Shown here one piece after another: positions 1 through 17,864 of a stretch of DNA of 22,365 nt (positions are counted from its first letter, which is position 1; every line of letters begins with the position of its first letter). Made by a program: the position numbers and the translations under genes. The DNA is from a virus, in IMG/VR virus record IMGVR_UViG_3300043398_000212, positions 1 to 22,365 of that record. The stretch is one strand, 5' to 3'. Under the pieces are notes generated by a model. It ran no database searches. It worked only from the letters and a program-made list of their open reading frames with translations, and was not told the origin of the DNA.

Positions 1-1146
1 TACAAAAACAACAAAGCAGTTGACCTGCTTACCGTGAATAATTACTTAAAAGATTCAGGCAAACTCGAATTGACAGGCGGCGCTTATTACCTTGCCCAAC
101 TCACAAATAAGGTTTCCAGTGCTGTTAATATTGAATTTCACACAGCTATTTTAATTCAAAAGTACATATCAAGGGAACAAATCCGAATTGCCGGCGAAAT
201 GGCAGAATTGGCCTTTAATGATGAATTAGACCCATTTGAATCAGTTGCAAGGTTTAATACAGAACTTATCACACTTGTAAATAGTAGCCTAAGAAAGCAA
301 ATAAACCCATTCTCCCGCGTTTTTGATACCGTGTTAGATGAGATATATACCCCATCGCTAAAAGATGGCTTAAAATGCGGTTTTAATGAATTAGATGAAT
401 TGATAGGTGGATTTCAGCCCTCAGATTTAATTGTTTTGGCAGCAAGGCCAGGAATGGGTAAAACCGCTTTAATAGTAGCAATGATGCGACATTTAGGTAT
501 GGCAGGTATTCCAAGCGGGTTTTTCTCTCTCGAAATGAGCCAAGAACAAATCGTAAAACGCATGATTTCAGCCGAATCCGGTATTTATTCCACAAAGTTT
601 AGAAGTGGACATTTTAACGAATTTGATTTGTCAGCCATTGAAAACATAGACCCATATTTTAAGAATTTGCCGATATTTATTGATGACTCAGCCGGAAGTA
701 GTTTAACCGAAATTCAGGCCAAATCAAGGCAAATGCACCAATTAGGGGCGAAGGTTATTTTTGTGGACTACCTACAATTGATAAAATCCACGTCACGAAG
801 CAGAGAACAGGAAGTTGCCGAGGTTTCACGCGGTCTAAAAAATATTGCAAAAGACTTAGGTATTCCGGTTGTTGCACTTGCTCAATTGAATAGAGGCGTA
901 GAAGATAGGGCTGATAAACGGCCAATGCTTTCCGATTTAAGAGAATCGGGTGAAATTGAAAACAGCGCGGACGTGGTTACTTTCTTAGTCAGACCTGAAT
1001 ATTACAAAATAGAAAACTTCAACTTTCATGGCAACCATACAAGTGCCGATGGTATTGGAATTTTGGACGTACAAAAAAACAGACACGGGGCAACCGGAGA
1101 TATGCTGATTAATTTTGATAAAAACCTGATTAAATTTTATGGATAA
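1..1146 (+). CDS. dnaB: Replicative DNA helicase, DnaB type (5' end outside window)
   Basis: Replicative helicase that unwinds DNA ahead of the phage fork, as a ring-shaped RecA-fold ATPase. The frame is open from base 1. The first 11 in-window codons (YKNNKAVDLLT) continue smoothly into the GTG at 34 and resemble the DnaB N-terminal domain, so 34 is not a credible start and the gene begins upstream; 381 residues are visible. Counting from base 1, a Walker A motif (ARPGMGKTA) lies near residues 148-156. It is followed by a Walker B-like segment (VIFVDYLQL), the invariant AQLNRGVE stretch and the DnaB H4 region (SDLRESGEIENSADVV). The gene ends FYG-stop and overlaps the next start by 8 nt. Family assignment is very secure. 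What is missing is only part of the N-terminal, primase/loader-contacting domain. Confidence 0.96.
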   Translation, partial: YKNNKAVDLLTVNNYLKDSGKLELTGGAYYLAQLTNKVSSAVNIEFHTAILIQKYISREQIRIAGEMAELAFNDELDPFESVARFNTELITLVNSSLRKQINPFSRVFDTVLDEIYTPSLKDGLKCGFNELDELIGGFQPSDLIVLAARPGMGKTALIVAMMRHLGMAGIPSGFFSLEMSQEQIVKRMISAESGIYSTKFRSGHFNEFDLSAIENIDPYFKNLPIFIDDSAGSSLTEIQAKSRQMHQLGAKVIFVDYLQLIKSTSRSREQEVAEVSRGLKNIAKDLGIPVVALAQLNRGVEDRADKRPMLSDLRESGEIENSADVVTFLVRPEYYKIENFNFHGNHTSADGIGILDVQKNRHGATGDMLINFDKNLIKFYG

Positions 1147-1315
1147 AACAGAATACGAAAGGGCAAAAAAAATGCTCAAATCCGCTATTGCAAAATATGA
1201 AGGCTTACCCGCTAACACGGCCGAAGAAAAAATGGCAAAACTTCACGCAATGGACGAGGTAATTGAATTGAACGAATACCTTTTAATTCTAATGAATGAC
1301 CATTTTATAAAATGA
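1139..1315 (+). CDS. Small hypothetical protein, 58 aa
   Basis: Not recognised. The ATG at 1139 overlaps the last 8 nt of the helicase gene, and the frame runs to TGA at 1313. The protein (MDKTEYERAKKML... to ...LILMNDHFIK) is charged and looks wholly helical, with no cysteine and no membrane segment. The overlap suggests translational coupling to the helicase. A small helical protein next to DnaB could be a helicase-associated factor, but nothing in the sequence shows that. The frame and spacing fill an otherwise empty gap and support a real gene. Confidence 0.6.
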   Translation: MDKTEYERAKKMLKSAIAKYEGLPANTAEEKMAKLHAMDEVIELNEYLLILMNDHFIK

Positions 1316-1339
1316 GAGCAGAATATAAACAAAAATATT

Positions 1340-1822
1340 ATGAATCAGGTAGAAGTAAACAGGAGAGTATCAAAGCTCGTTGACCAAAAAAGACAACTCA
1401 GGATCAAACACGAAAGCGACATGAACAGAATCTACAACCTTTCAGAGAAAATCGCAGAACTTCAAGCGGAAAACGCAGCATTGAAGGGAAAACTATCCAT
1501 TTATGAATCTGCAACACCCATAAAGGACGTTGTTTTTGAAAACGAAGGGCAAAAAGTAACCAGGGCAATACAGCAAAAATATCCGAACTTTGGATTATGG
1601 TGCTTAAAAACCCGCAGCAGGAAAAGGGAAATTTGTGTTCCGCGACAAATATGGCAGTCAATCATGGTGCTAAAAAAGTTCTCATTAAAACAAGTCGGAG
1701 AATATTGCGGTGGCCGCGACCACAGTAGTATCATAAATTCCAAACAAGTTGTCCAAGACCTTTGTGATACCGACAAAAAGTTTTTGGCAAGCTATGAAAC
1801 AATTTTAAAAGAGGCAAAATAA
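1340..1822 (+). CDS. Coiled-coil protein with DnaA domain IV (DNA-binding) but no AAA+ domain
   Basis: Predicted DNA-binding protein of 160 residues. Residues about 10-55 are a heptad-rich coiled coil (QKRQLRIKHES..., AELQAENAALKGKL). Residues about 89-145 match the C-terminal helix-turn-helix domain of the bacterial initiator DnaA: TRSRKREICVPRQIW parallels the DnaA segment around its conserved R-x-I-A region, and CGGRDHSS (123-130) parallels the DnaA signature GGRDHTT that contacts the DnaA box. The nucleotide-binding domains of DnaA are absent. It lies between the helicase gene and a long structured non-coding stretch. By inference it could recognise a phage origin or DnaA boxes, recruit or compete with host DnaA, or act as a repressor. 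The start is the ATG at 1340 with only A-rich sequence upstream, as is common in Bacteroidota. Confidence 0.85.
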   Translation: MNQVEVNRRVSKLVDQKRQLRIKHESDMNRIYNLSEKIAELQAENAALKGKLSIYESATPIKDVVFENEGQKVTRAIQQKYPNFGLWCLKTRSRKREICVPRQIWQSIMVLKKFSLKQVGEYCGGRDHSSIINSKQVVQDLCDTDKKFLASYETILKEAK

Positions 1823-1885
1823 TTTAGTTAATTTACAAAATTAATTAGGATATTTCAAAAGTCTTATTTTAATTTGCAAGCAGTT

Positions 1886-2341
1886 CTTTGAAACAAAGAT
1901 ATTTTCAGGATTCCCGAAAGGGTGGTATAAGGGGACGCGGAAGCGGCTAATGGAACGGAATAGGACGTGCCGAAATACTCCTACCTGAAAGATATTTGCC
2001 AATGGGTGTAATCCTCCTTTTCACTAACGGGTAAAAGTGAACCAAAGGCAATAAACATAGGTGGCATCCTGCGATAAATACTTTTTATAGGCATACTAAT
2101 AAAGTCGTGCGCAAAGGCCTGCACGGAGTACGCGGATAAAAGCATTGTCCTATGTTTTCCCCTTCAACCTTAATCAGTTGTGGGGGAGCAAAAGCTGTGA
2201 TGCTAAACACAACGCAAAGATGGGTATTGCATAGTGTCCGAATTGAAGCGGAAAATCGCACCTCTACCCAAGGTTCGTAGAATCGGTAAAAATCTTCAAT
2301 CACAGCTTTCCCCTTGCCCCATACTTTAAAACGGTATGGGG
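1886..2341 (+). ncRNA. Candidate large structured RNA, about 450 nt, unknown family
   Basis: No gene fits 1823-2361, but complementary segments abound. Domain I: AGGATT 1907-1912 with AATCCT 2010-2015, enclosing CCC-GAAA-GGG (1913-1922, a GNRA-type loop) and GGTGG-TAT 1921-1928 with ATA 1975-1977 plus CTACC 1981-1985. Then the hairpin TTCAC 2020-2024 with GTGAA 2037-2041. Domain II: AAACATAGG 2053-2061 with CCTATGTTT 2149-2157, containing CGTGC 2106-2110 with GCACG 2121-2125. Domain III: AAAGCTGTGAT 2191-2201 with ATCACAGCTTT 2299-2309, continued by GGGG 2182-2185 with CCCC 2310-2313 across a bulge. Inside it, AAGAT-GGGTA 2217-2226 pairs with TACCC 2265-2269 and ATCTT 2292-2296. The GAAA loop and a G-U pair favour the plus strand. 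No tmRNA, RNase P, tRNA or group I/II intron signature was seen. Transcript ends are unknown and no clear promoter was found. Seen: complementarity. Inferred: that it folds as RNA. Confidence 0.6.
2317..2341 (+). other. Perfect 8-bp hairpin before the membrane-protein gene
   Basis: CCCCATAC (2317-2324) and GTATGGGG (2334-2341) are perfect inverted repeats around a 9-nt loop. No T-run follows, so it is not an intrinsic terminator. It sits 20 nt before the ATG at 2362 and could be the 3' hairpin of the structured RNA or a stability or translation-control element for the next gene. Confidence 0.7.
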
Positions 2342-2361
2342 TTGAGGCGGTGAAAAGAAGT

Positions 2362-2550
2362 ATGGAAAACAAAGAAAAAAGCATTTTCAGTATCGGGTTT
2401 GGTGGATTGCTTACCCTGATATTTATAACCCTTAAATTGGTTGATAAAATAGATTGGTCATGGTGGTGGGTGCTTTCGCCATTATGGATTCCCGTTGCCT
2501 TGATTTTGTTTTTAGTTTTGATTGTCATTTTGTTTTCTGAAAGAGATTAA
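2362..2550 (+). CDS. Small two-helix membrane protein, Fragile-X-F-associated (Tmemb_185A) type
   Basis: A 62-residue membrane protein. Residues about 8-25 (SIFSIGFGGLLTLIFITLKL) and 33-58 (WWWVLSPLWIPVALILFLV...) form two hydrophobic helices separated by VDKIDWSW. The LLTLIFITLKL...IDWSWWWVLSPLWIP pattern is the one found in short phage proteins usually labelled transmembrane Fragile-X-F proteins, whose function is unknown. A TTG at 2314 in the same frame would add 16 residues, but those fall inside the hairpin at 2317-2341. The ATG at 2362 gives a normal charged N-terminus and was preferred. The gene directly follows the structured non-coding region. Confidence 0.75.
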   Translation: MENKEKSIFSIGFGGLLTLIFITLKLVDKIDWSWWWVLSPLWIPVALILFLVLIVILFSERD

Positions 2551-2568
2551 CCCCCTAAACAATAAACC

Positions 2569-2895
2569 ATGACATATAAAAAAGGAAAAACAATTTACAT
2601 TAAATGCAATGTTGGTATAACGGAGGTAATATCTGGGTACAAATGCGTTATCGAAAGGGTAAATAAAAAAGAAGGGCAAGTTTCATCGTTAAGGGTTTCA
2701 ATTTGCGAAGATTTTAATTTAAGAGAGGGTTTTACAAAGAGTGAAACGATGCCAAAAAGAACATTTCAAATCGCACCCAAAGCATATCAGTTTTTTGAAA
2801 ACAGAAAGGAATTTGTCGATAATATATATTTAACTTTGTTTAATGCAATCAAGACATTACGGTCATATGAGGACGAAGTATTTAAATTTTCATAA
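2569..2895 (+). CDS. Hypothetical protein, 108 aa
   Basis: Not recognised. The protein is basic at its start (MTYKKGKTIYIKC) and looks like a mixed beta domain over residues 1-65, then a helical C-terminus (KEFVDNIYLTLFNAIKTL...). There is no signal peptide, membrane segment or metal-binding cluster. It starts in the TAAACCATG context 18 nt after the membrane-protein gene and stops 3 nt before the next start, so it is the first member of a compact set of small genes. Its place between replication and packaging genes suggests an accessory role, unproven. Confidence 0.75.
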   Translation: MTYKKGKTIYIKCNVGITEVISGYKCVIERVNKKEGQVSSLRVSICEDFNLREGFTKSETMPKRTFQIAPKAYQFFENRKEFVDNIYLTLFNAIKTLRSYEDEVFKFS

Positions 2896-2898
2896 ACC

Positions 2899-3093
2899 AT
2901 GAACTGGATAAAAAGACTTTTTTCAAAATGGGTATTTATACCACACCAATTATGTCCAAAATGTCACGGTCAGGGTATAGTAAGTAAACCGCCTTATGTC
3001 GCGGGTGATGCAACTCAATGGGCTGGGGATGGTAGAAATTTTGAATGCAGGGTTTGCAAGGGTAGTGGAGTAATTTTAATGAGTAAACAATAA
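2899..3093 (+). CDS. Small DnaJ-like zinc-finger protein, 64 aa
   Basis: A 64-residue protein with two CxxCxGxG motifs: CPKCHGQG at about 19-26 and CRVCKGSG at about 50-57. This spacing and the Gly pattern are those of the DnaJ/Hsp40 cysteine-rich zinc-binding region, here as one four-cysteine unit without a J domain. The N-terminus (MNWIKRLFSKWVF) is amphipathic and basic, then PHQL leads into the first motif. By family knowledge it would bind one zinc ion and could act in protein or nucleic-acid contact; the target is unknown. It begins 3 nt after the preceding stop and ends 3 nt before the next start, both in the TAAACCATG context. Confidence 0.8.
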   Translation: MNWIKRLFSKWVFIPHQLCPKCHGQGIVSKPPYVAGDATQWAGDGRNFECRVCKGSGVILMSKQ

Positions 3094-3096
3094 ACC

Positions 3097-3192
3097 ATGA
3101 TATTAATTATATTTTTACTTTTAATCCTTTGGCTTTTGCATAAATGTGCGGTTGCTATGGACTATCTTAAAGACAGAAATAAATACAAATAA
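3097..3192 (+). CDS. Tiny membrane peptide, 31 aa
   Basis: A 31-residue open frame (MILIIFLLLILWLLHKCAVAMD... ending RNKYK). Residues 2-14 are almost purely aliphatic and aromatic, giving one short membrane helix, followed by a basic, soluble tail. It starts in the same TAAACCATG junction as its neighbours, three nt after one stop and three nt before the next ATG. That junction is the best evidence that it is translated. Function is unknown. The length is typical of small phage membrane peptides. Confidence 0.65.
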   Translation: MILIIFLLLILWLLHKCAVAMDYLKDRNKYK

Positions 3193-3195
3193 ACC

Positions 3196-3432
3196 ATGAC
3201 ATTTGAACAAGCAAAACAGCAGATAGCGGGAAACACGTTTTTAAAAACAAAAACATGGGATTCTGTAATTGAAAACATTTCTGGCGCAGATTTAAAATAT
3301 TGTATTGACCAAGCTGCCGAACTATGGCAGTCCGAAAACCTTGCCGAGATTGAAGCGAAAGACAAAAGGATTGCAGAATTGGAGGCAGTGTTGGTTAATA
3401 TTTATTTTACAGCAAAGGGACTTTTAAAATGA
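3196..3432 (+). CDS. Hypothetical helical protein, 78 aa
   Basis: Not recognised. Mostly helical: residues 1-45 are a compact amphipathic segment with one cysteine (MTFEQAKQQIAG..., DLKYCIDQAAELW) and residues 47-65 form a short coiled coil (LAEIEAKDKRIAELEAVL). No membrane segment. The ATG lies in the fourth TAAACCATG junction, and the TGA stop overlaps the next ATG as ATGA, so translation is probably coupled. An accessory early gene by position only. Confidence 0.75.
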   Translation: MTFEQAKQQIAGNTFLKTKTWDSVIENISGADLKYCIDQAAELWQSENLAEIEAKDKRIAELEAVLVNIYFTAKGLLK

Positions 3433-3650
3433 AAACAGCAGTACAAACCTTTTTTGATGAATTAGTTAGCTTGGGATTTATTGAAAACCCCGATGATTTG
3501 TTAGTCCAAGATAGGCTCAAACAAGCCCTTAAAACAGAAAAACAGCAGATAATTGATGCTCACAAAATGGGGCAACATTACGAAGCAGATTGGAAAGATA
3601 CGGTGGATTCACAACAATACTACAAACAAACCTATGGAAGCGAAGGATAA
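3429..3650 (+). CDS. Hypothetical protein, 73 aa
   Basis: Not assigned to a function. The acidic, helical sequence (FFDELVSLGFI..., RLKQALKTEKQQIIDAHKMGQHY) resembles short proteins often seen beside one another in Bacteroidota phages and carrying a KQQIxDAxxxGQ-like segment. The ATG overlaps the previous stop (ATGA). The 3' end overlaps the next gene by 17 nt if that one starts at 3634. No cysteine or membrane helix. Confidence 0.75.
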   Translation: MKTAVQTFFDELVSLGFIENPDDLLVQDRLKQALKTEKQQIIDAHKMGQHYEADWKDTVDSQQYYKQTYGSEG

Positions 3651-3861
3651 AGCAAAAGAGTTGGTTGAAAAATTCAAGCCGTATATGTACCCTTATGTTG
3701 GCAGTTCCTATTTAACAGGCGATGAATTTCCAGAGCAGATTTTAAGGTATGCCAAACAATGCGCCTTAATCGCAGTTGATGAGATATTGCAAACAAACTT
3801 GTTAGACCATCAAACACACGACTATTGGCATAAAGTAAAACCCGAAATTGAAAAACTATGA
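3634..3861 (+). CDS. Hypothetical protein, 75 aa
   Basis: The frame is open from 3553, but the upstream 27 codons lie entirely over the previous gene and read as unlikely protein. The ATG at 3634 gives a sensible N-terminus (MEAKDKAKELVEKFKPYMYPYV). The rest (QILRYAKQCALIAVDEILQTNLL) matches a common small protein type in Bacteroidota phages with an AKQCALIAVDEI core. Its function is unknown. The stop overlaps the following ATG as ATGA. Confidence 0.75.
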   Translation: MEAKDKAKELVEKFKPYMYPYVGSSYLTGDEFPEQILRYAKQCALIAVDEILQTNLLDHQTHDYWHKVKPEIEKL

Positions 3862-4133
3862 AAGTAGCAACATGGAAAGGATGTAAGGATTGCCCGTATA
3901 ACCAATGGGATTCAAACAGTGGTTATAGCTGCGAAAATCCCAATATGGAGCCAATTTACTTTGATAGGGACGGTATCGAAATTCCCGAAACCCCTCACGA
4001 AAACTGCAAGCTGCCAGATTTGCCAAGTATGGAATTTGCCGTTAATACAGCAATGTTACAAAGCAATTATATGCACAAGCTGAAATCAGTTGAATTTGGT
4101 GCTAACTACGTTTTAAACAAAATAAAGCAATGA
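3858..4133 (+). CDS. Hypothetical cysteine-containing protein, 91 aa
   Basis: Not recognised. The N-terminal half holds four cysteines: CKDC at 9-12, one in SGYSCENPN and one in HENCKLPD. They could form a small zinc or disulfide-stabilised fold. The C-terminal half is helical (SMEFAVNTAMLQSNY...KIKQ). It is coupled to both neighbours by ATGA overlaps (3858-3861 and 4130-4133). No known catalytic motif is visible. Confidence 0.72.
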   Translation: MKVATWKGCKDCPYNQWDSNSGYSCENPNMEPIYFDRDGIEIPETPHENCKLPDLPSMEFAVNTAMLQSNYMHKLKSVEFGANYVLNKIKQ

Positions 4134-4300
4134 AATTTACAATAACATTTTTGGATTTTGCCGATAGAGAACTAAAGCAACAAATAATTGAGGGCGTGGA
4201 TAATTTGCATTCTGCAATTGTAGAATTTGAAGAGGTTCAGCCGTTATTTTATGATTATTTGGTTTTAAAAGTAGAATTAACCCCTGAAAATGAAAAATAG
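4130..4300 (+). CDS. Hypothetical protein, 56 aa
   Basis: A 56-residue frame starting in an ATGA overlap with the previous gene and ending 11 nt inside the next. The protein starts MKFTITFLDFADRELKQQI and ends VLKVELTPENEK, with an alternating pattern suggesting a strand-helix-strand mini domain. Not recognised. The overlapping start and stop on both sides fit the surrounding gene packing and support it as a real gene. Confidence 0.65.
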   Translation: MKFTITFLDFADRELKQQIIEGVDNLHSAIVEFEEVQPLFYDYLVLKVELTPENEK

Positions 4301-4562
4301 AATTTACAGATTTTTGCGAAAAATAACCAAAACACCCGAATGGGCTGTACCTCCTAATTGGGTTTATAAAATAGGTATATTAATGTTTGGTAATCCGCAA
4401 AAAATAGGCGGGGTGCTTTATAATTGGGAATCTGATATGTTTGAATTTAACGGCATAAAAATAACCAGACAAGCGATTGTAAGCCTTACACAAATGAACG
4501 GGGTTTATAAGTTAGAAAGCGAAAACGGGGTTGTAACCATAACCAAAGTAAATGGAAGTTGA
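4290..4562 (+). CDS. Hypothetical protein, 90 aa
   Basis: Not recognised. Basic N-terminus (MKNRIYRFLRKITKTPEWAVPPNW) followed by a beta-rich region (GGVLYNWESDMFEFNGIKI..., GVYKLESENGVVTITKV). There is no full membrane segment and no metal-binding cluster. It overlaps the previous gene by 11 nt. It is one of the last rightward genes before the leftward packaging genes. Confidence 0.72.
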   Translation: MKNRIYRFLRKITKTPEWAVPPNWVYKIGILMFGNPQKIGGVLYNWESDMFEFNGIKITRQAIVSLTQMNGVYKLESENGVVTITKVNGS

Positions 4563-4567
4563 AATTT

Positions 4568-4726
4568 ATGCCAATGAGAATAACAAAAAACAAATCGGGG
4601 AGTTTCAAGGTGCAAGTGAAGGATTATACCTACAGCGGTGGGACGTGGGTTAAATGTTTATATGCAGGAATACGATTTTTGATTCTGAAAAGAGGGTTTA
4701 AGATTAAACAAAATACTCCATTGTAA
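4568..4726 (+). CDS. Small basic hypothetical protein, 52 aa
   Basis: A 52-residue frame with strongly basic content: MPMRITKNKSGSFKVQVKD at the start and RFLILKRGFKIKQN near the end. ATGs at 4568 and 4574 are both possible starts. Its 3' end overlaps the 3' end of the leftward terminase gene by 23 nt, so the two transcription units converge tail-to-tail without a visible terminator between them. A shorter frame (4552-4653) overlaps it, but the 52-residue frame has the more protein-like composition. Possibly a nucleic-acid binder by charge; unproven. Confidence 0.5.
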   Translation: MPMRITKNKSGSFKVQVKDYTYSGGTWVKCLYAGIRFLILKRGFKIKQNTPL

Positions 4727-6077
4727 TCCCACCAGTATCTCGTCCCCAGGGGTCAATAGTAATGAAACCTTGTGCGCGAATGAATTTTCGCATTAATTCG
4801 GCATAGCGAGCCGCGTCAATTCCGTGATTAAAGTTGTCTTGTGGCATTACGTTATTTTCCCCATCCCTATCCTTGCCGTATGAGTAATTGTTAAATTCTT
4901 TGCGTAGGTTGACACTTTTTTCCGTTACGCGGATTTCGTCATAAGAAAGCATCATTTCTAATCCTGAAACAACACTCCCTGGTTTCTTTGTCGCCTTCCT
5001 TACCGAGCATCCATGAGCAACCAATTCCGCAATGGTTTCCGGTCTTGCGTTGTCTGCGAAAACATAAGTACCCTTTTGGGTATTATCGCGGACAAGGTTT
5101 TTTAGCCCTTTTTTGAATATGCCATTTTCGGTTCTGTCATCCAACATGATAGATTTCCCGTAAAACAATTCGTCAATGTACAAGTATTTCTTTCCTTCTT
5201 CCTGAATTACTCCGGTTCTTACCATTGCCGCAGGGTCTTTCGAGAATCCAAAGTCTAATCCCTGATTAACATGGTATTTGTGCGGGTTTTCGTAGAAAAT
5301 ATCAGGCCATTGTTTTACTACCTTCACATTATTGAATACCAAACCATCAATTGTGCCAATTTCGCCAAGCCCGTAGATTTTATATTTCTCAGGATCAGTA
5401 TGCTTCATTTTCTCGATTTGGGCAATTTGCTTTTCACCAAGAAATTTACGGTTGTTTCTCCAGGTGGTTTTATAAAGTATTGTTGTTGGGTCTATACCGT
5501 GTTTAGGTTCACCATTTTCGTCCAAAATTGGTGCATCATTAGCATCGAGTAGTATCGGCTTCCATACTTTTGTATGCGCCCAAAATTCAGCATTCGGGTT
5601 AAAGTCAATCCATACTTGCTTTGTGGTACGGAATGAAATCTCATGGTAAATATCGTAAGGTATGCCATTTGCTTCATTGAAAAACGAGTATTCCCGTTTA
5701 CCATGTTTTGCCTGGTCGATGGTTTCAAAGGAACGGAAACTGATTCGTGACCCGTTAAAGAAAAAGTAAGTCTTATCAGTAGAGTGAAATTGCTTTATAT
5801 ATGCTTCAATCTGTGGGTCATTGATTAATATGGTTTGCATATCATTCATTGCGCCTTGTTTTAGCGAAGGAACGTCTTTGCCTATAATCAAAATTCGTGA
5901 CCTCGGTTCTGTTATGGCTTTGATTATAGCGCATTGCATTAGACCGTATGTTTTGCCGGAACTTGTCCCGCCCTGGTGAATTACAACAAACTTATCCGAA
6001 TTTAATGTTAGAGGGACTATTTGGTTTACCCCAAGACTAAAAAAGCTGTCAAGGTTCAATTTCGATTGATTGGTCAT
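4704..6077 (-). CDS. terL: Terminase large subunit (packaging ATPase and nuclease)
   Basis: Motor and nuclease that cuts concatemeric phage DNA and pumps it through the portal. The 457-residue length is normal. The ATPase domain has Walker A GGTSSGKT (36-43) and a Walker B-like FFNEAN (132-137), with the acidic pair typical of the PBSX-like Terminase_3 group. The RNase H-like nuclease domain shows its acidic residues in GLDFGF (D275), FADNARPE (D342) and HGIDAARY (D421). It starts at 6077, overlapping TerS by 29 nt, so the two are probably co-translated. It lies on the strand opposite to the portal and capsid genes, which is less usual. The function is very secure; which packaging type it uses (cos or pac) cannot be told. 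Confidence 0.96.
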   Translation of the reverse strand: MTNQSKLNLDSFFSLGVNQIVPLTLNSDKFVVIHQGGTSSGKTYGLMQCAIIKAITEPRSRILIIGKDVPSLKQGAMNDMQTILINDPQIEAYIKQFHSTDKTYFFFNGSRISFRSFETIDQAKHGKREYSFFNEANGIPYDIYHEISFRTTKQVWIDFNPNAEFWAHTKVWKPILLDANDAPILDENGEPKHGIDPTTILYKTTWRNNRKFLGEKQIAQIEKMKHTDPEKYKIYGLGEIGTIDGLVFNNVKVVKQWPDIFYENPHKYHVNQGLDFGFSKDPAAMVRTGVIQEEGKKYLYIDELFYGKSIMLDDRTENGIFKKGLKNLVRDNTQKGTYVFADNARPETIAELVAHGCSVRKATKKPGSVVSGLEMMLSYDEIRVTEKSVNLRKEFNNYSYGKDRDGENNVMPQDNFNHGIDAARYAELMRKFIRAQGFITIDPWGRDTGGITMEYFV

Positions 6078-6790: not shown

Positions 6791-6950
6791 TTTCTGTTTC
6801 TAATTCTTTGATTCTATCCGCCCTGCGATAAAGTTCCTGCATTGCAGAGTCATATTCAGCCCATCCTTCTTCTTTTTCTGGGTTTTCTGAATACATGATT
6901 ACTTTTGCTGCTTCCGCAACTCTAAGTACGATTTTGTCTGATATTGTCAT
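6756..6950 (-). CDS. Small hypothetical helical protein, 64 aa
   Basis: Not recognised. The 64-residue acidic protein (MTISDKIVLRVAEAAKVI...) ends in a coiled-coil-like stretch (LYRRADRIKELETENERLTNQ). It starts with a 4-nt overlap with the end of the NinG-like gene (6947-6950), so translation is likely coupled. It lies in the leftward unit that ends with the terminase genes. Confidence 0.7.
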   Translation of the reverse strand: MTISDKIVLRVAEAAKVIMYSENPEKEEGWAEYDSAMQELYRRADRIKELETENERLTNQAIGS

Positions 6951-7333
6951 TTGTGTTTTTCGATTATTTCAATCAAGTAAAATCTATCTGTCTTATGGGC
7001 TTTTTTTTGTGCAGCCAACATATCCAACATAGCAAGCCTTTCCGAACCTATCCTTTTTTCAAGTTCTATCCGGTAAGGAATAAGGTTGCCGTGTTTGTAG
7101 TAATTGCATTGTACGCATTGACCATGACAGTTATCTTCTAAGAACCTCATGTGGTTGTATTGGCCGGCAGAATAAAAGTGACCCGCCTGTTCTACTCTAC
7201 CGGAACACGAAACACAACGCTTTCCTGCATCCCTTTTACGAACCCAAGCGTTAAATACAGTCTGCGCCTTAGTTTTGAGTTTCGGGGTTGTGTATTTTGA
7301 GTAGCGTTGAATTATTGACGAAGTTAGTTCCAT
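6947..7333 (-). CDS. ninG: NinG-like recombination protein (Rap family)
   Basis: Homologue of lambda NinG (Rap), a protein that promotes recombination and has been linked to structure-specific DNA cleavage. From the ATG at 7333 the protein has 128 residues; an ATG at 7363 would add MFYILKRYLF. The family signature is complete: CVSC, then QAGHFYSAG, RFLEDNCHGQCVQCNYYKHGN, and PYRIELEKRIGSERL. The two CxxC pairs should hold zinc and the conserved His residues should be in the active site. The 7333 start is preferred because it reduces overlap with the upstream gene from 95 to 65 nt. Encoded in the leftward unit with the terminase. Confidence 0.88.
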   Translation of the reverse strand: MELTSSIIQRYSKYTTPKLKTKAQTVFNAWVRKRDAGKRCVSCSGRVEQAGHFYSAGQYNHMRFLEDNCHGQCVQCNYYKHGNLIPYRIELEKRIGSERLAMLDMLAAQKKAHKTDRFYLIEIIEKHK

Positions 7334-7655
7334 AAACAGATACCTTTTTAGAATGTAAAACAAATTTTTCTACTCCCATCATTTGAACCGGACGGTAACA
7401 CCTGGAACACAAAACTACTGCATTCGTGTGATTTAAAATTTTTCCGCTTAAAGGCAAAATGCCATAAGAAGCACCACCGCAACAGTAGCATTCTTGCGAC
7501 ATAAATACACGGACTTCTTCAATTGACAGGTCGTTCTGAATGCCCATTTTCATGCAATACATTCGTATAGAAACCCAATCCATATCTTTCTTATAAACGT
7601 ATTTGCTGCGCTTTTGGCCTATATCCTTGCGCTTTTTTCTTTGGTTTCCTGCCAT
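7269..7655 (-). CDS. Basic four-cysteine (zinc) protein, 128 aa
   Basis: First gene of the leftward unit. From the ATG at 7655 it has 128 residues: a very basic N-terminus (MAGNQRKKRKDIGQKRSKYV), a helical middle, then CYCCGG (CxxC at 56-59) and LCSRCYRP (CxxC at 83-86). The spacing and the text between (GKILNHTNAVVLC) recall HNH nuclease or zinc-ribbon folds, but a full HNH motif is not seen. The frame is open to 7694, but that start would lie upstream of the predicted transcription start, so 7655 was chosen. It overlaps the NinG-like gene by 65 nt. Possibly a DNA-binding or degenerate HNH-type protein. Confidence 0.68.
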   Translation of the reverse strand: MAGNQRKKRKDIGQKRSKYVYKKDMDWVSIRMYCMKMGIQNDLSIEEVRVFMSQECYCCGGASYGILPLSGKILNHTNAVVLCSRCYRPVQMMGVEKFVLHSKKVSVYGTNFVNNSTLLKIHNPETQN

Positions 7656-7705: not shown

Positions 7706-9229
7706 GTGGTTAAATTACAAGTAATTTGCATTCCGTTGGCAAATCAGATAAACCCATCCACTTATCGCGGTGGCTTTTGGGGAGGCATATCTTCATTTCT
7801 ATCGGGTTTCCCCTGGATAGGGAAAGGTAGCGATTTGACGTATGTAAACAACCAAATCCAAAACGACAAATATGGGTTTGATTTAGGCAATACCGAAAAA
7901 CTTATCAATGCCGGCTACATAACAAACCCTCATGTTTTTTCTGTTATAAATAAAATCCTGATGGAGATTATCAACATTCCCTGGGGTGTTTATAATGTAG
8001 AAGATAGGGGTAAACTCAAAAGATTAAAGGCATTAAAAAATGGTGGCGACTTTGATTCTGTTTTAGCGATAGACAAGGCGACTTATACCTTATCTGAGGG
8101 TGACAGCGATTTGGACAAGTTGCTGAAAAAGCCAAACTCAAAGCAGACTTGGGAACAAATGATACAATCCATGACCGGAATGTATATTTTGACCGGAGAT
8201 GCTATCGGGTACGGGGTAAAAAGCAATCTTAGGGTAAGGTCTGGGCTTTTGGAATTGATACCGCTTCCTTCGCAGTTTGTAGAGGTAATTCCTAAAAACA
8301 TTTGGACAGGCGAAGTAAGTAAATATGTATTGTGGCTTTCACCGGACAAGGGGCAAGAATTTGACCCTACCGAAATTGTACATATCAAGAACTTCAATCC
8401 AAGCCTATCGAAAGTCAATGTTGACAATAAACAAATATTCAGTTTAGGCTTGCGCGGAATTAGTAATCTCGCTTCACTTGCAAGGGTAATTCAAGGTTCT
8501 AATGACGGGTTTATAGCCCAAATGCGACTGATACAAAATGGTGGCCCGATAGGGATTTTAAGCAATGCAAGTAACGAGCCTTTAATAATGGCAGATGCAG
8601 CGCAAAGCCAACAAGCAACCGACCAACAAATGTCGCAATACTCAGGGGCTTGGAACAAAGGCAAAATAAGAGTTACCACAGCGAATCTGAAATGGATTTC
8701 TATGGGTATGAACTCTGTTGACCTGCAACTTTTGGAATTGCAGAAAGCGACCTTGCAGAATGTTTGCAATGTACTGAATATGCCGCTTGAAATGATGTCG
8801 CTTGAGGGTTCTACCTTCAACAACAAAAAAGAGGCATTGAAGGAAATGTGGAACGGGGCTATTCTACCAAACCTGAATATTATCCGTGACCACATAAACG
8901 AATACCTTTCTAATTTTTATCCTACACTCAAAAACGGTACGCAATGGATTGACTACGACCACAGAGCCATTCCCGCTTTACAGCAGGATATTGAAAAAAT
9001 GCACAAAATATGGAAGGAAAGAGTTGAAACCCACCTTGCTACGCCTGAAATGTACCAACAGGCAATGGGCATAGACAATGTGCAGCCGGATGGAAACCTA
9101 AGCAAATATTTTACCACAACAAACCTCAGAAGGGCAGACGAACCTTTGCCTGGAAGAACTGATGTAAATAACAATGGAAACAACAATGACCCCGGAGGAA
9201 CTGGAAGCCCTGCGGCAAAAAAAGATTAA
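7706..9229 (+). CDS. Phage portal protein, HK97 type
   Basis: The dodecameric portal forms the vertex channel through which TerL pumps DNA and to which the tail attaches. The 507-residue length is normal, with the order expected for the family: an N-terminal region with NPHVFSVINKIL, the segment TWEQMIQSMTGMYILTGDAIGY, a beta-rich wing (LIPLPSQFVEVIP, VLWLSPDKGQEF, EIVHIKNFNP), and the long helical stem and crown with NVLNMPLEMM and STFNNKKEALKEMWNGAILP. The start is GTG at 7706: a stop lies in frame at 7685, and the ATG at 7704 is out of frame. The C-terminus is Asn/Gly/Pro-rich and low complexity. A small frame overlaps its last 44 nt. Confidence 0.93.
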   Translation: MVKLQVICIPLANQINPSTYRGGFWGGISSFLSGFPWIGKGSDLTYVNNQIQNDKYGFDLGNTEKLINAGYITNPHVFSVINKILMEIINIPWGVYNVEDRGKLKRLKALKNGGDFDSVLAIDKATYTLSEGDSDLDKLLKKPNSKQTWEQMIQSMTGMYILTGDAIGYGVKSNLRVRSGLLELIPLPSQFVEVIPKNIWTGEVSKYVLWLSPDKGQEFDPTEIVHIKNFNPSLSKVNVDNKQIFSLGLRGISNLASLARVIQGSNDGFIAQMRLIQNGGPIGILSNASNEPLIMADAAQSQQATDQQMSQYSGAWNKGKIRVTTANLKWISMGMNSVDLQLLELQKATLQNVCNVLNMPLEMMSLEGSTFNNKKEALKEMWNGAILPNLNIIRDHINEYLSNFYPTLKNGTQWIDYDHRAIPALQQDIEKMHKIWKERVETHLATPEMYQQAMGIDNVQPDGNLSKYFTTTNLRRADEPLPGRTDVNNNGNNNDPGGTGSPAAKKD

Positions 9230-11483: not shown

Positions 11484-11926
11484 AAAAGTATTTCATATTA
11501 GCAGCGGTTATGTTGTTCGCAGTAGCAGCAACCGCACAAACGTACACTTTGCTTTCTCCTTACGGAAATGCAACAGATTCAGTTTCTAATTCAGCAACGA
11601 ATTATTTATACAAACAAATACCAGGCCCGGCAGAGGTTATTACAATTCAATTGACAATAACAAAACTGTCTGGAACAGGCGCAGGAACGGCAACCCTTTG
11701 GGCAAGCCTCGATGGGGTTACTTATGTTAGACTAAGAGAAACGGGGTATCACAGCACTACTACTTCTACCAATTCTGACAGCCTGGCGATTAAAAACGTG
11801 ACCACTCAAAGCATTGCATGGTCTGTTAAACCATCCACGTATTTGTATTACAAGGTAAGCGTTACCGGATCAGGAACCGAGCTTTTAACTTTAGCAGCAA
11901 CCGCAATACAGAGAAAACCAAAATGA
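11480..11926 (+). CDS. Predicted exported beta-rich protein inside the head module, 148 aa
   Basis: The first 20 residues (MKKYFILAAVMLFAVAATAQ) form a textbook Sec signal peptide: Lys-Lys, a hydrophobic core, and A-T-A-Q as the likely cleavage region, a form common in Bacteroidota. The mature part is Ser/Thr-rich beta sandwich-like (ITIQLTITKLSGTGAGTATLWASLDG..., YLYYKVSVTGSGTELLTLAATA). Proteins with the TLWASLDG...YYKVSVTGTG pattern occur in Bacteroidota phages; function unknown. It is coupled to both neighbours by ATGA overlaps, so it belongs to the late structural operon. Virion proteins are assembled in the cytoplasm, which makes a signal peptide odd here. It could be a surface-modifying protein, or the segment could be a structural hydrophobic helix. 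Confidence 0.75.
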   Translation: MKKYFILAAVMLFAVAATAQTYTLLSPYGNATDSVSNSATNYLYKQIPGPAEVITIQLTITKLSGTGAGTATLWASLDGVTYVRLRETGYHSTTTSTNSDSLAIKNVTTQSIAWSVKPSTYLYYKVSVTGSGTELLTLAATAIQRKPK

Positions 11927-12429
11927 GCATTCTCGCAGCAAGTGACTTCACGGGGCAGTTTGGCATTGCACAAAACAATGTTACTGATTTTTCATGGTAC
12001 TTTGAAAGGTACGAAAGAGAATACCTTGTGAAGTTGCTTGGTGCAGATTTGTATGGTCTTTTTTATGCCGACCTCGGTGGCAATCCCGAAACACCTACGG
12101 AAGATAAATATGTGACAATTTTTGAGCCTTTGACTTTTGACGAAGGGAAACCTTATGTTTCGCATGGAATAAAATTCATACTGAAATGTTTTGTTTTCTA
12201 TCATTTTATCAAAGACAACAATTTGTATCACTCAATCGCGGGACTCGTTAGTAATAACGTAGAAAATGCGGTAGCACAAATTGAAACAAAAGGCGCACAA
12301 TATATCACCACAAGGTATCAGGAAGCACTTGAATCTTTTGAGGCAATTCAGGTTTACATTCAAAACAACATGTCGGATTACCCTGATTTTAATGGGGTAG
12401 AAATACAACGGAGTCCTGTTTTTTGGTAA
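11923..12429 (+). CDS. Probable head-tail connector (adaptor), 168 aa
   Basis: The 168-residue protein is mostly helical, with YLVKLLGADLYGLFYADL near residues 34-51, a hydrophobic central helix (GIKFILKCFVFYHFIKDNN), and a C-terminal helix (YQEALESFEAIQVYIQNNM). This all-helical plan and the position two genes after the capsid fit the adaptor that docks under the portal. It overlaps its neighbours by 4 nt (ATGA) and 1 nt (TAATG). The exact role is inferred from synteny, not from a diagnostic motif. Confidence 0.6.
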   Translation: MSILAASDFTGQFGIAQNNVTDFSWYFERYEREYLVKLLGADLYGLFYADLGGNPETPTEDKYVTIFEPLTFDEGKPYVSHGIKFILKCFVFYHFIKDNNLYHSIAGLVSNNVENAVAQIETKGAQYITTRYQEALESFEAIQVYIQNNMSDYPDFNGVEIQRSPVFW

Positions 12430-14320: not shown

Positions 14321-14352
14321 AAAGGGGCGGGTTTAATAGCCCGCCCCTTTTT
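14321..14352 (+). terminator. Strong intrinsic terminator inside the late operon
   Basis: AAAGGGGCGGG (14321-14331) and CCCGCCCCTTT (14340-14350) pair perfectly over 11 bp around an 8-nt loop, followed by two further T (TTTTT in all) and then ATT. The T-run is on the plus strand, so it acts on rightward transcripts from the head and tail-tube genes. It ends 3 nt before the ATG at 14356. It probably lets the tube and capsid genes be expressed more than the tape measure genes. Confidence 0.9.
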
Positions 14353-14355
14353 ATT

Positions 14356-14826
14356 ATGGAAGCATTGTTTAATCTGTTGAATAACTTTAAGAAATTGGAC
14401 GAGGACGTTCAGTTCAAGAAGTTTTTTGACATAACCGAACATAAGGCATTTGTGATTTCGCGAAATACCTGGGGGCAGCTTTTTGAAATGGGTGTAGATG
14501 CTTTTTCGCGACCATTACCTACTTACCGGCCTTCGACTGTTAAAAGGAGAGGCGGAGTAAAAGGGGACGGAACACCGTTCAGGGTAGGGGAACATTACAC
14601 ATTGAGGGATTACGGGAATTTCTACCAAAGTTTTCAGGTAAAGGCGTATAAAGGATTTTTGGAGATTGACGCTGATACATTGAAAATGCACGATGGTAAG
14701 ACTTTTTTTAATCCCGATGATGTAGTAGGTTTGACTGATGATAGCAAAGAAAAACTGGTAGATTATATGTTAGAAACGAATTTTATACCCAATGATATAC
14801 TTGAAACCGTATTACAATTCGATTGA
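14356..14826 (+). CDS. Tail morphogenesis protein candidate, 156 aa
   Basis: The 156-residue protein lies right after the terminator. It has a helical N-terminus (MEALFNLLNNFKKLDEDVQFKKFF), then RPLPTYRPSTVKRRGGVKGDGTPFRVGEHYTL, then LRDYGNFYQSFQVKAYKGFLEIDAD. The last part recalls the L-x-D/T-G-x-x-x-x-S-F pattern of phage virion-morphogenesis and minor-tail proteins of the HK97 gp10 or Mu G type, where a Gly is followed by a short helix and beta strands. It overlaps the next gene by 35 nt. The position just before the tape measure suggests tail assembly, not proven. There is almost no room for a ribosome-binding site because the terminator abuts the start. Confidence 0.6.
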   Translation: MEALFNLLNNFKKLDEDVQFKKFFDITEHKAFVISRNTWGQLFEMGVDAFSRPLPTYRPSTVKRRGGVKGDGTPFRVGEHYTLRDYGNFYQSFQVKAYKGFLEIDADTLKMHDGKTFFNPDDVVGLTDDSKEKLVDYMLETNFIPNDILETVLQFD

Positions 14827-15265
14827 AGAACTGCCGATGTTTAATTGGCTGAAACTCAATGGCGGTGAGTATAAATACCTATTGAAACCATTTTGGCTAT
14901 CAATGGTAGAAAGCATGAAAGAAACGCCAAAGCGGAAAGCGCGATGGTTTTCCTTGTATGACCAATACATTAACGAGATTGGGCTTACAGAGGACTATAA
15001 AGAATTATTGCGAGCCATGAAAAAACACGGTTTAGCTTGTGTGCGATACATTCAGAATCCAACAAGTTTGAACAAAACAAAAATGGCCGCTGCGGAATCC
15101 GAGATACAGGATTTAAGCAAAGGCGAAAAAGGCAAGTTTGAGGAATTTGTGGCAATGGTTGAAAAGTACATGGGTATTCCGGTGGACTTGAAAAAGATAA
15201 GCGTAAAGAGGTTTTATGCTTATGTAGAAATAATGAAAAAAGAAAATGGCAAAAAAGATATTTAG
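14792..15265 (+). CDS. Tail assembly chaperone candidate, 157 aa
   Basis: The helical 157-residue protein begins MIYLKPYYNSIEELPMFNWLKLNGGEYKYLL, a motif seen in proteins encoded just before the tape measure in Bacteroidota phages. The remainder is charged helix (RKARWFSLYDQYINEIGL..., FEEFVAMVEKYMG, RFYAYVEIMKKENGKKDI). In many siphophages the genes directly before the tape measure make the chaperone that coats it, which is the inferred role. It starts 35 nt inside the preceding gene and overlaps the tape measure by 20 nt. The ATG at 14837 is a possible internal start but would remove the SIEELP motif. Confidence 0.55.
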   Translation: MIYLKPYYNSIEELPMFNWLKLNGGEYKYLLKPFWLSMVESMKETPKRKARWFSLYDQYINEIGLTEDYKELLRAMKKHGLACVRYIQNPTSLNKTKMAAAESEIQDLSKGEKGKFEEFVAMVEKYMGIPVDLKKISVKRFYAYVEIMKKENGKKDI

Positions 15266-17864
15266 CAGTGATATATTTGGCGAAGAAAATCTATTTGATA
15301 AACAGTACAAAGGTGCTTTACAGTTAGAGAAAGCCCTTGACGGGGTTATATCGAATATACGAACAATGGCATCGGTTACAGGGGCAACACTCAAAGATGC
15401 TAATGTAAATAATGCAGGCGGGGTAGAAAAACTTGGAAGGTCTTATAACGAGGCTACTATGGAAGCGAAATTGCTTAAACAAGCCGAGGAAGATTTAATC
15501 AAAACACGGGCGAAGATAAACATTTCAAATCAGGAAGTTATCACAGAACTTACGCAGGTAAGGAAAGAATATCAACTTTTGATGGCTGAAAAAAGGGCAA
15601 AAGCAAGGGTTGATAACGATGAAATTGGCGCATATCAAAAATTGACAAATGCGATGCAGTTGGCCGCAAGGCAAATGAAAAACCTTTTTGTCGAGGGCAA
15701 GCAGAATGAAGAACAGTTTAAAAGACTATCGGCTGAATATTCTAAACTTTACGAACAAGCACTTGCCGCAGACAAATCAGTAGGCCAATATCAAAGAAAC
15801 GTTGGTAACTACAACATGGAAAATCAGCGACACGCCTATTCTTTATTTCAAGTTACACAGGTACTTAGAGAAATGCCAAACTTTGCCCAAAGTGCAACTA
15901 TCGGAATACGGTCTTTGGGAAACAATATTCCAATGCTTACCGCTGAACTTACGAGAATGGCAAAATCTGTTGACGAAAACACAGGTAAGGTCTTTGGTTG
16001 GAAAAACACCATGAAAGCCGTTGTGGGTGAGATTTTCGGATGGCAGAGTGCGATTATTCTTTTGATCACCGTTTTTACGATTTTCGCAAAAGAGATAGGA
16101 GAATGGACTTCAAGTGTTTTTGGCGCAAGGAAAGAGTTGTCTGCGTTAAAAGACATTCAAAAACAAATAGCCGAAGTAGGCCAAGAAAACCTGCATAATT
16201 ATGCCAAAGAAAGAGCCGAAATAACACTACTCGTTGGTGTTTTAAAATCGGAAAATACAACAAAAGAAGAAAAATACAAAGCAACAAAGCGGCTCAATGA
16301 AATAAGTCCTGAATATTTGGGGAATATATCGGCGGAAACCATTAACACGGACGAGGCCACAGACGCAATTGCGAGATACATTGTGCATATCGAGAGGTTG
16401 GCAAAAGCAAAAGCCGTATTTGACAAGTATTCTGAATTGGAAAAAATCATTGTCGATACCCAAACAATTGACACAAACGTAAGAAACAGAGAGGCCTTAA
16501 AAAAGTTGGTTGGCGAAGATTATGAAGAAATTGCCTATGAAAACGCAAAGGTTTCCGCAGAGGCAAGGGGAAATATGGAAGGAGAAAAAGGTTGGAAGTT
16601 CCAAGCGGAGTACAACCATTATATTCAACTTGCGCTGGCAGCTAAAAGGGCTGCCGCTATTTATGAACAAAAAACCCTAAACGATTTTTTAAATAAAAGC
16701 GGGCTAATTGGAGAGCTTGGAAGCGACAAAAAGATTAGTGGCGGTGGAATAAAAGGCGGCGCAAGCGGCAAAGGTTCGGGCGGCGCAGACGAGCCGAAAT
16801 ATGCAAACGGTGATATGGATAAGGCTTTTCAATCATGGAGAACCCAAATGGAAACTGAGGCCAATAATTTGTTACTTAATCAGCGTATGACGGCGCAGGA
16901 ACATTCAAGGGTAATGATTCAAATTGAACTTGAATACCTTGAACGCACCAAGCAACTTTATATTGAATACGGCAAACCAATTTTAGAAATTGAAAAGAAA
17001 ATATCCGAGGCAAAACTAAGGATGTTAAACCCTGGCTCTGAATCAAAACCCGACAAACCTGAGAAACCCGCGAAAGTTGATGACATGGGCAAAAACCTAA
17101 AAGATTCCGCCACAAACTTAATGAAACTCGCACAGACCATTGACAAAGTAGTGAATGATTGGGAAAGGGCGCAACAACAAAGACTGCAACACCAAATGGA
17201 TATTACCAAACGGAAGCAGGAAGATTTGCGAATGTTGGCAGCACAGGGGGTAAAAGATGCGAAAGACAACCTTGCTTTTGAGGAAAAGAAACAAGCCGAA
17301 TTGCAACAGAAACAGGAAAGATTACAGAGGGCAGCGGTTTACAGACAAACTGCGCTTGCAGCACTTCAAACGTATAATAACAAAATACAGGCAGGCGACC
17401 CGAATGCACTTGGGCATACTTTAACGGACATTGCGGCTTTACTTGCGTTTGTAGCATTCACCCCAGGTTTTATTGAAGGAACAGAAAAGGGTACTGTCGC
17501 TGATAATTTAGGAAACCCGCAATTAAAAGGAAGGGATGGTTACATGATACGGGTAGACGGCAAAGAAAAGATTTTTAACCCAGAGCATACAGAAATGATT
17601 GGGGATATGACAAATTCGGAGGTTGCCCAATTGGCTTTCTTGTACAGAAGCGGAATGAGTCCTGTGAATGTAGACGCAAGGTCAACAGCGAAAAATGATG
17701 ATGTTGTTCAAGAATTGCGCGAAGTAAAGAAGGCTATTGCAGAACAACGGCCACCGCAAATGATGTGGAACGACACCGATAAAGCGATGGAGTACAAATA
17801 CAATCAGGGTAACAAAATGGTGCGCGAAATACACAAAACAAGCGGAATTTGGAGTGATAGATAA
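15246..17864 (+). CDS. Tape measure protein, 872 aa
   Basis: Longest complete gene. Long helical, coiled-coil protein that sets tail length and is ejected with the DNA. Residues 60-180 are charged coiled coil. The segment AYSLFQVTQVLREMPNFAQS plus ATIGIRSLGNNIPML (about 197-231) is typical of Bacteroidota tape measures. A hydrophobic stretch (SAIILLITVFTIFAKEI, 268-284) could span a membrane. A Gly/Lys-rich linker (ISGGGIKGGASGKGSGG) lies mid-protein, and a second hydrophobic patch (ALLAFVAFTPGF) near residue 735. By the usual 1.5 angstrom per residue rule, 872 residues imply a tail near 130 nm. It overlaps the preceding gene by 20 nt and the next by 1 nt (TAATG). Confidence 0.92.
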   Translation: MAKKIFSSDIFGEENLFDKQYKGALQLEKALDGVISNIRTMASVTGATLKDANVNNAGGVEKLGRSYNEATMEAKLLKQAEEDLIKTRAKINISNQEVITELTQVRKEYQLLMAEKRAKARVDNDEIGAYQKLTNAMQLAARQMKNLFVEGKQNEEQFKRLSAEYSKLYEQALAADKSVGQYQRNVGNYNMENQRHAYSLFQVTQVLREMPNFAQSATIGIRSLGNNIPMLTAELTRMAKSVDENTGKVFGWKNTMKAVVGEIFGWQSAIILLITVFTIFAKEIGEWTSSVFGARKELSALKDIQKQIAEVGQENLHNYAKERAEITLLVGVLKSENTTKEEKYKATKRLNEISPEYLGNISAETINTDEATDAIARYIVHIERLAKAKAVFDKYSELEKIIVDTQTIDTNVRNREALKKLVGEDYEEIAYENAKVSAEARGNMEGEKGWKFQAEYNHYIQLALAAKRAAAIYEQKTLNDFLNKSGLIGELGSDKKISGGGIKGGASGKGSGGADEPKYANGDMDKAFQSWRTQMETEANNLLLNQRMTAQEHSRVMIQIELEYLERTKQLYIEYGKPILEIEKKISEAKLRMLNPGSESKPDKPEKPAKVDDMGKNLKDSATNLMKLAQTIDKVVNDWERAQQQRLQHQMDITKRKQEDLRMLAAQGVKDAKDNLAFEEKKQAELQQKQERLQRAAVYRQTALAALQTYNNKIQAGDPNALGHTLTDIAALLAFVAFTPGFIEGTEKGTVADNLGNPQLKGRDGYMIRVDGKEKIFNPEHTEMIGDMTNSEVAQLAFLYRSGMSPVNVDARSTAKNDDVVQELREVKKAIAEQRPPQMMWNDTDKAMEYKYNQGNKMVREIHKTSGIWSDR

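Follow-up and report, generated by a model that had tools for sequence, protein, structure and literature searches.

What occupies the longest gene-free stretch of this phage, next to its replication genes, is the question raised by the window analysed here (the whole 22,365-nt stretch of the phage contig, an IMG/VR record). An earlier note had described a gap of about 540 nt without a credible reading frame and proposed that it carries a large structured RNA. The gap itself was borne out: it spans positions 1823-2361 (539 nt), no other such stretch in the window is as long, and stop codons interrupt all six frames, none of which shows the codon usage of this phage. Codon log-odds were at, near or below zero in every frame, as against about 0.1-0.26 for most long genes of the phage, and the one ORF exceeding 54 aa was an antisense frame that extends through the downstream gene. 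A reassigned stop codon that would open the stretch was rejected because all three stops are present in most frames. This is a non-coding stretch, of a length unusual in phages. Its GC content of 44% (0.40 for the window) lies at the 95th percentile of the window, and it is bordered by AT-rich flanks, with a GC of 0.26 across 1761-1920.

Upstream lie the DnaB helicase (1-1146; Pfam and PHROGs) and, directly before the stretch, a protein of 160 aa with DnaA domain IV only (Bac_DnaA_C, 1340-1822, + strand; Pfam PF08299, 8.2e-9, above cutoff). This domain is the DNA-binding part; the ATPase domain was unmatched, the gene adjoins that of the replicative helicase, and its product has a single clear relative in IMG/VR (49% over 67 aa). 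The downstream neighbour (2362-2550, + strand) encodes a small membrane protein of unknown function (phrog_1374; PHROGs 2.1e-21) and is followed by further small genes on the + strand and then by the terminase (4704-6077, minus strand; Pfam and PHROGs). One of the small proteins (2899-3093) contains CxxC pairs and has weak similarity, below cutoffs, to the DnaJ zinc finger and to anti-TRAP. The gene order between 4704 and 7694 is unusual, since the minus-strand terminase genes and a NinG-type endonuclease (6947-7363, minus strand; Pfam and PHROGs) are set between two long + strand blocks, and the portal, capsid and tail genes are all on the + strand (Pfam and PHROGs).

Because the DnaA_C and DnaB genes flank the stretch, the main rival to an RNA is an element acting at the DNA level. 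Such an element, for instance an origin or initiator-binding region, would be bound by the neighbouring protein with DnaA domain IV, and the phage's DnaB helicase would be loaded onto it. Unwinding would take place in the AT-rich tract (1823-1885), and the stems would be incidental or form cruciforms. Both this tract and the position directly downstream of dnaB and the DnaA_C-only gene recall phage origins that lie beside initiator and helicase genes. The second contig that carries the stretch (IMGVR_UViG_3300047547_000143) has a DnaB start upstream and a gene there with a start that presumably resembles phage replication organisers, which was also counted in favour. However, the DnaA box TTWTNCACA occurs 0 times in the window vs 4.5 expected by chance, a figure to be read with the reservation that the phage protein may use another box. 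Neither iteron-like repeats (the repeat pairs are chance-like only) nor a turn of the GC skew was detected at the stretch. The absence of an iteron-type repeat family and of DnaA boxes, in which the stretch differs from those origins, also argues for an RNA on the + strand, and we consider an origin unlikely at this locus.

The proposal of an RNA had been built on long-range complementary arms, and every one of these is present where it had been placed. They comprise a 9-bp arm (AAACATAGG/CCTATGTTT, 2053-2061/2149-2157), an 11-bp arm (AAAGCTGTGAT/ATCACAGCTTT, 2191-2201/2299-2309) with GGGG/CCCC beyond a bulge, a 6-bp arm (AGGATT/AATCCT, 1907-1912/2010-2015), and nested helices in which AAGAT-GGGTA pairs with TACCC and ATCTT. 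The GAAA-loop hairpin CCC-GAAA-GGG (1913-1922) has a stem of merely 3 bp, and the 6-bp arm crosses a better local helix (1902-1909/1984-1991). The arms were compared with 1000 dinucleotide shuffles of 1886-2341, a region picked by eye beforehand. The longest perfect helix reached at least 11 bp in 2.7% of the shuffles, two helices of at least 9 bp occurred in 3.8%, and 1.3 helices of at least 8 bp are expected by chance per shuffle on average. Thus the arms exist, and the content in long helices exceeds that of about 97% of shuffles, but with 2.7% and 3.8% of shuffles matching them they do not stand far beyond chance and make weaker evidence than the note had suggested. The 9-bp arm alone, and arms of 5-6 bp, are not evidence because shuffles yield comparable helices by chance. 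The bulges, the G-U pair and the GNRA loop, which had been put forward as marks of RNA and not of protein-binding palindromes, make a weak argument, since a chance fold shows all three.

The folding energy of the whole segment on the + strand was better than that of 95% of shuffles (z -1.95; 5/100 equally good). Two observations count against an RNA on this strand: a z of -1.95 or lower was also reached in 7.7% of 78 windows of 460 nt from this phage, nearly all of them coding, and the 5′ half of the stretch (1841-2080), analysed in 160-nt windows, folded no better than shuffles on either strand. Within 2081-2400, the 160-nt windows of the + strand had z values no lower than -1.1 to -1.5. These figures support a mild enrichment and are no proof of structure. 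Several coding windows of the same phage outfold the stretch; those at 11921-12080, 14321-14480 and 8081-8240 have + strand z values below -4.4.

The minus strand scored better, which also counts against the + strand and raises the alternative of a structured RNA that would extend from about 2345 to about 1893 on the minus strand. On that strand no shuffle was as good as the whole segment (z -3.08; 0/100), 160-nt windows had z below -2 from 2001 to 2320, with -3.96 for the sub-window 2161-2320, and a terminator-like site lies at 1919-1903. Against this, terminator-like sites number 2 vs 1.2 expected by chance, no minus-strand -7 element was found in a useful position, and the genes from 1 to 4726 are all on the + strand. 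A minus-strand RNA is in our judgment improbable.

On the + strand, the predicted domains cover 1900-2342 consecutively and almost without gaps, with some GU pairs. Domain 1 (1900-1994) would be closed by the helix TTTTCAGG/CCTGAAAG (1902-1909/1984-1991; pair probability 0.83 when folded alone, without comparative support) and holds the hairpin at 1913-1922. In domain 2 (1996-2051), TTGCC/GGCAA is predicted to enclose a TTCACT/AGTGAA hairpin (closing helix 0.68). Domain 3 (2053-2157) would be closed by the 9-bp helix and have a three-way junction inside, and its main helices reach 0.87-0.95 alone and lower values in the whole-segment fold. Domain 4 (2157-2188) is a predicted hairpin, TTCCCCT-CAAC/GTTG-GGGGGAG (0.9-1.0). 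Domain 5 (2183-2313; 0.89-0.95) contains the 11-bp helix 2191-2201/2299-2309 (helix length P 0.027 vs shuffles) and inner helices including 2221-2226/2265-2270. The last element, domain 6, is a predicted 3′ hairpin at 2316-2342 (GCCCCATACT/GGTATGGGGT, arms 2316-2325/2333-2342; 0.96-0.98). When the whole segment is folded, the long-range pairs 1929-1935/2309-2315 and 1960-1966/2147-2153 compete with domains 1 and 3, so that the arrangement of the domains is provisional. The 3′ hairpin is followed by TGAGGCGG, with no T-run and 20 nt to the next start codon (2362), and the terminator scan did not call it; with the next gene at 2362 and no T-run, it does not indicate a transcript end.

Transcription signals on the + strand were sought in the AT-rich tract 1823-1885, which from its place in the 0.26 GC region could be a promoter or an unwinding region for the sequence downstream. 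An imperfect -7 element, TTTTAATTTG, was spotted by eye near 1867-1876, and the exact motif TAnnTTTG is absent from the + strand of this tract. No clear promoter or + strand terminator was found for the stretch.

Homology searches gave no support. Rfam searches of the region with cmscan, both at the gathering threshold and with E relaxed to 10, returned no real match; CRISPR-DR13, TCV_H5 and RRE appeared as trivial matches, all far below cutoff. By blastn, no relative of the stretch was detected among INPHARED phages or PLSDB plasmids, in the latter of which four short matches to the AT-rich flank were dismissed as chance. Exact motif scans of IMG/VR (GGAAGCGGCTAATGG, CAAAGATGGGTATTG, GCGGATAAAAGCATT, CAATGGGTGTAATCCTC) and of GTDB contigs (AGGTGGCATCCTGCGATA) were evaluated by nhmmer and anchored alignment. 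Besides the near-identical contig, the matches to GGAAGCGGCTAATGG, GCGGATAAAAGCATT and CAATGGGTGTAATCCTC in IMG/VR and to AGGTGGCATCCTGCGATA in GTDB were chance-like, as were those to CAAAGATGGGTATTG in IMG/VR among the matches listed. The best of the motif-scan matches listed (L329; 227 nt, nhmmer E 0.24) was rejected because it falls within a coding frame of 898 aa, and a 17-mer also present in two terminase-related phages was rejected as it lies in the gene just before the terminase.

The probable Bacteroidota affiliation of the phage was taken from the earlier note, and 395 genomes of that group searched by DNA contained no homologue of the stretch. Covariance models were built for 2051-2159 and 2182-2314. 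Each drew a blank in 296 Bacteroidota genomes; across 87 sources, comprising the window and loci of phages, the models gave self-matches only, and among pattern-hit loci nothing rose above chance; phage and pattern-hit loci amounted to about 2.4 Mb in total, each model covering part. The empty searches of Bacteroidota genomes are weak evidence because they had no positive control.

Since conservation of the stretch was seen nowhere, and the helix statistics reach just the 3-5% level in a region chosen by eye, it could be a non-functional or fast-changing spacer, for instance what is left of a gene that was lost, with stems that reflect chance and mild GC enrichment. Half a kilobase of useless DNA would, however, be unusual for a compact phage, and no remnant of a frame was recognised, as judged by codon usage alone. 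We think a spacer rather unlikely.

The absence of genes, the GC content and the weak folding signal make a structured RNA on the + strand the leading reading, which we hold tentatively, at somewhat less than an even chance. The stretch would be an unclassified phage RNA of roughly 440-460 nt acting as RNA. A multi-domain RNA would fit all of the observations. In its favour are the lack of any gene over 539 nt in a phage that is densely coded elsewhere, a GC of 0.44 beside a tract of 26% GC and the consecutive tiling of domains over 1900-2342; the want of an Rfam match, homologue, covariation, clear promoter or + strand terminator in the searches described counts against it. The RNA may be co-transcribed with the replication genes or initiated within the AT-rich tract (1823-1885), and the transcript would fold into five or six successive local domains between 1900 and 2342. 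It could function as a stable trans-acting RNA or as an RNP scaffold; less likely, it would be a cis leader of the small-gene operon, which begins 20 nt past the last hairpin.

Few classes of large phage RNA are known, to our knowledge very few. Phages may also carry group I and II introns, RNase P RNA and tmRNA; these are unsupported here, with no Rfam or ARAGORN match, flanking genes that are separate and intact, and no catalytic core of a self-splicing intron (groups I and II) recognised in the stretch by the Rfam models. GOLLD and ROOL had been named as precedents, and membership of either is not supported. GOLLD occurs in phages and prophages. Its members are often longer than 800 nt and located close to tRNA islands, ROOL is phage-borne and has many domains and no known protein partner, and those large phage RNAs whose structures have been solved assemble into cages made of RNA alone, with a function not yet known (PMC12286853). 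The stretch resembles GOLLD as a large, gene-free, multi-domain candidate RNA in a phage and differs from it in its length of about 450 nt and in matching no GOLLD model (Rfam, E up to 10). It shares with ROOL a phage location and many predicted domains, whereas it matches no ROOL covariance model (Rfam, E up to 10) and has no tRNA island nearby; ARAGORN detected no tRNA gene or island in the 22-kb window, proximity not being a strict requirement for GOLLD. A new class of about 450-nt multi-domain phage RNA, located between replication genes and a small-gene operon of an uncultivated Bacteroidota-type phage and unrelated in sequence to GOLLD, ROOL or any Rfam family, is possible but doubtful. 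If it exists, it would add a further independent class to the few large phage RNAs known. At present the stretch, a single sequence with weak statistics, is of value as a defined target, with coordinates, domains and negative searches, to those who have transcriptomes or deeper metagenomes.

Within the collections searched, the phage appears to be an orphan. Protein baits (DnaA_C, TerL, DnaB and a TerL alignment) retrieved only distant phages, none with a related stretch; the terminases nearest to its TerL show about 30-39% identity along their length. In Bacteroides phage BC669P2, a 737-nt gene-free stretch lies upstream of the terminase (L011 2493-3229; record 15114-15850) and contains repeated TTTTTGAGAGAAAAG units, which resemble iterons or a regulatory array. 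The sole other copy of the stretch in the searched collections is that of IMGVR_UViG_3300047547_000143, which is about 99.9% identical to the window over 16 kb and 100% identical across the gene-free stretch, so that one genotype is represented overall. The same contig lacks 13 bases of the window, 7717-7729 (ACAAGTAATTTGC), which fall at the beginning of the portal gene or immediately ahead of it, and this gap makes the listed GTG at 7706 unlikely to be the real portal start.
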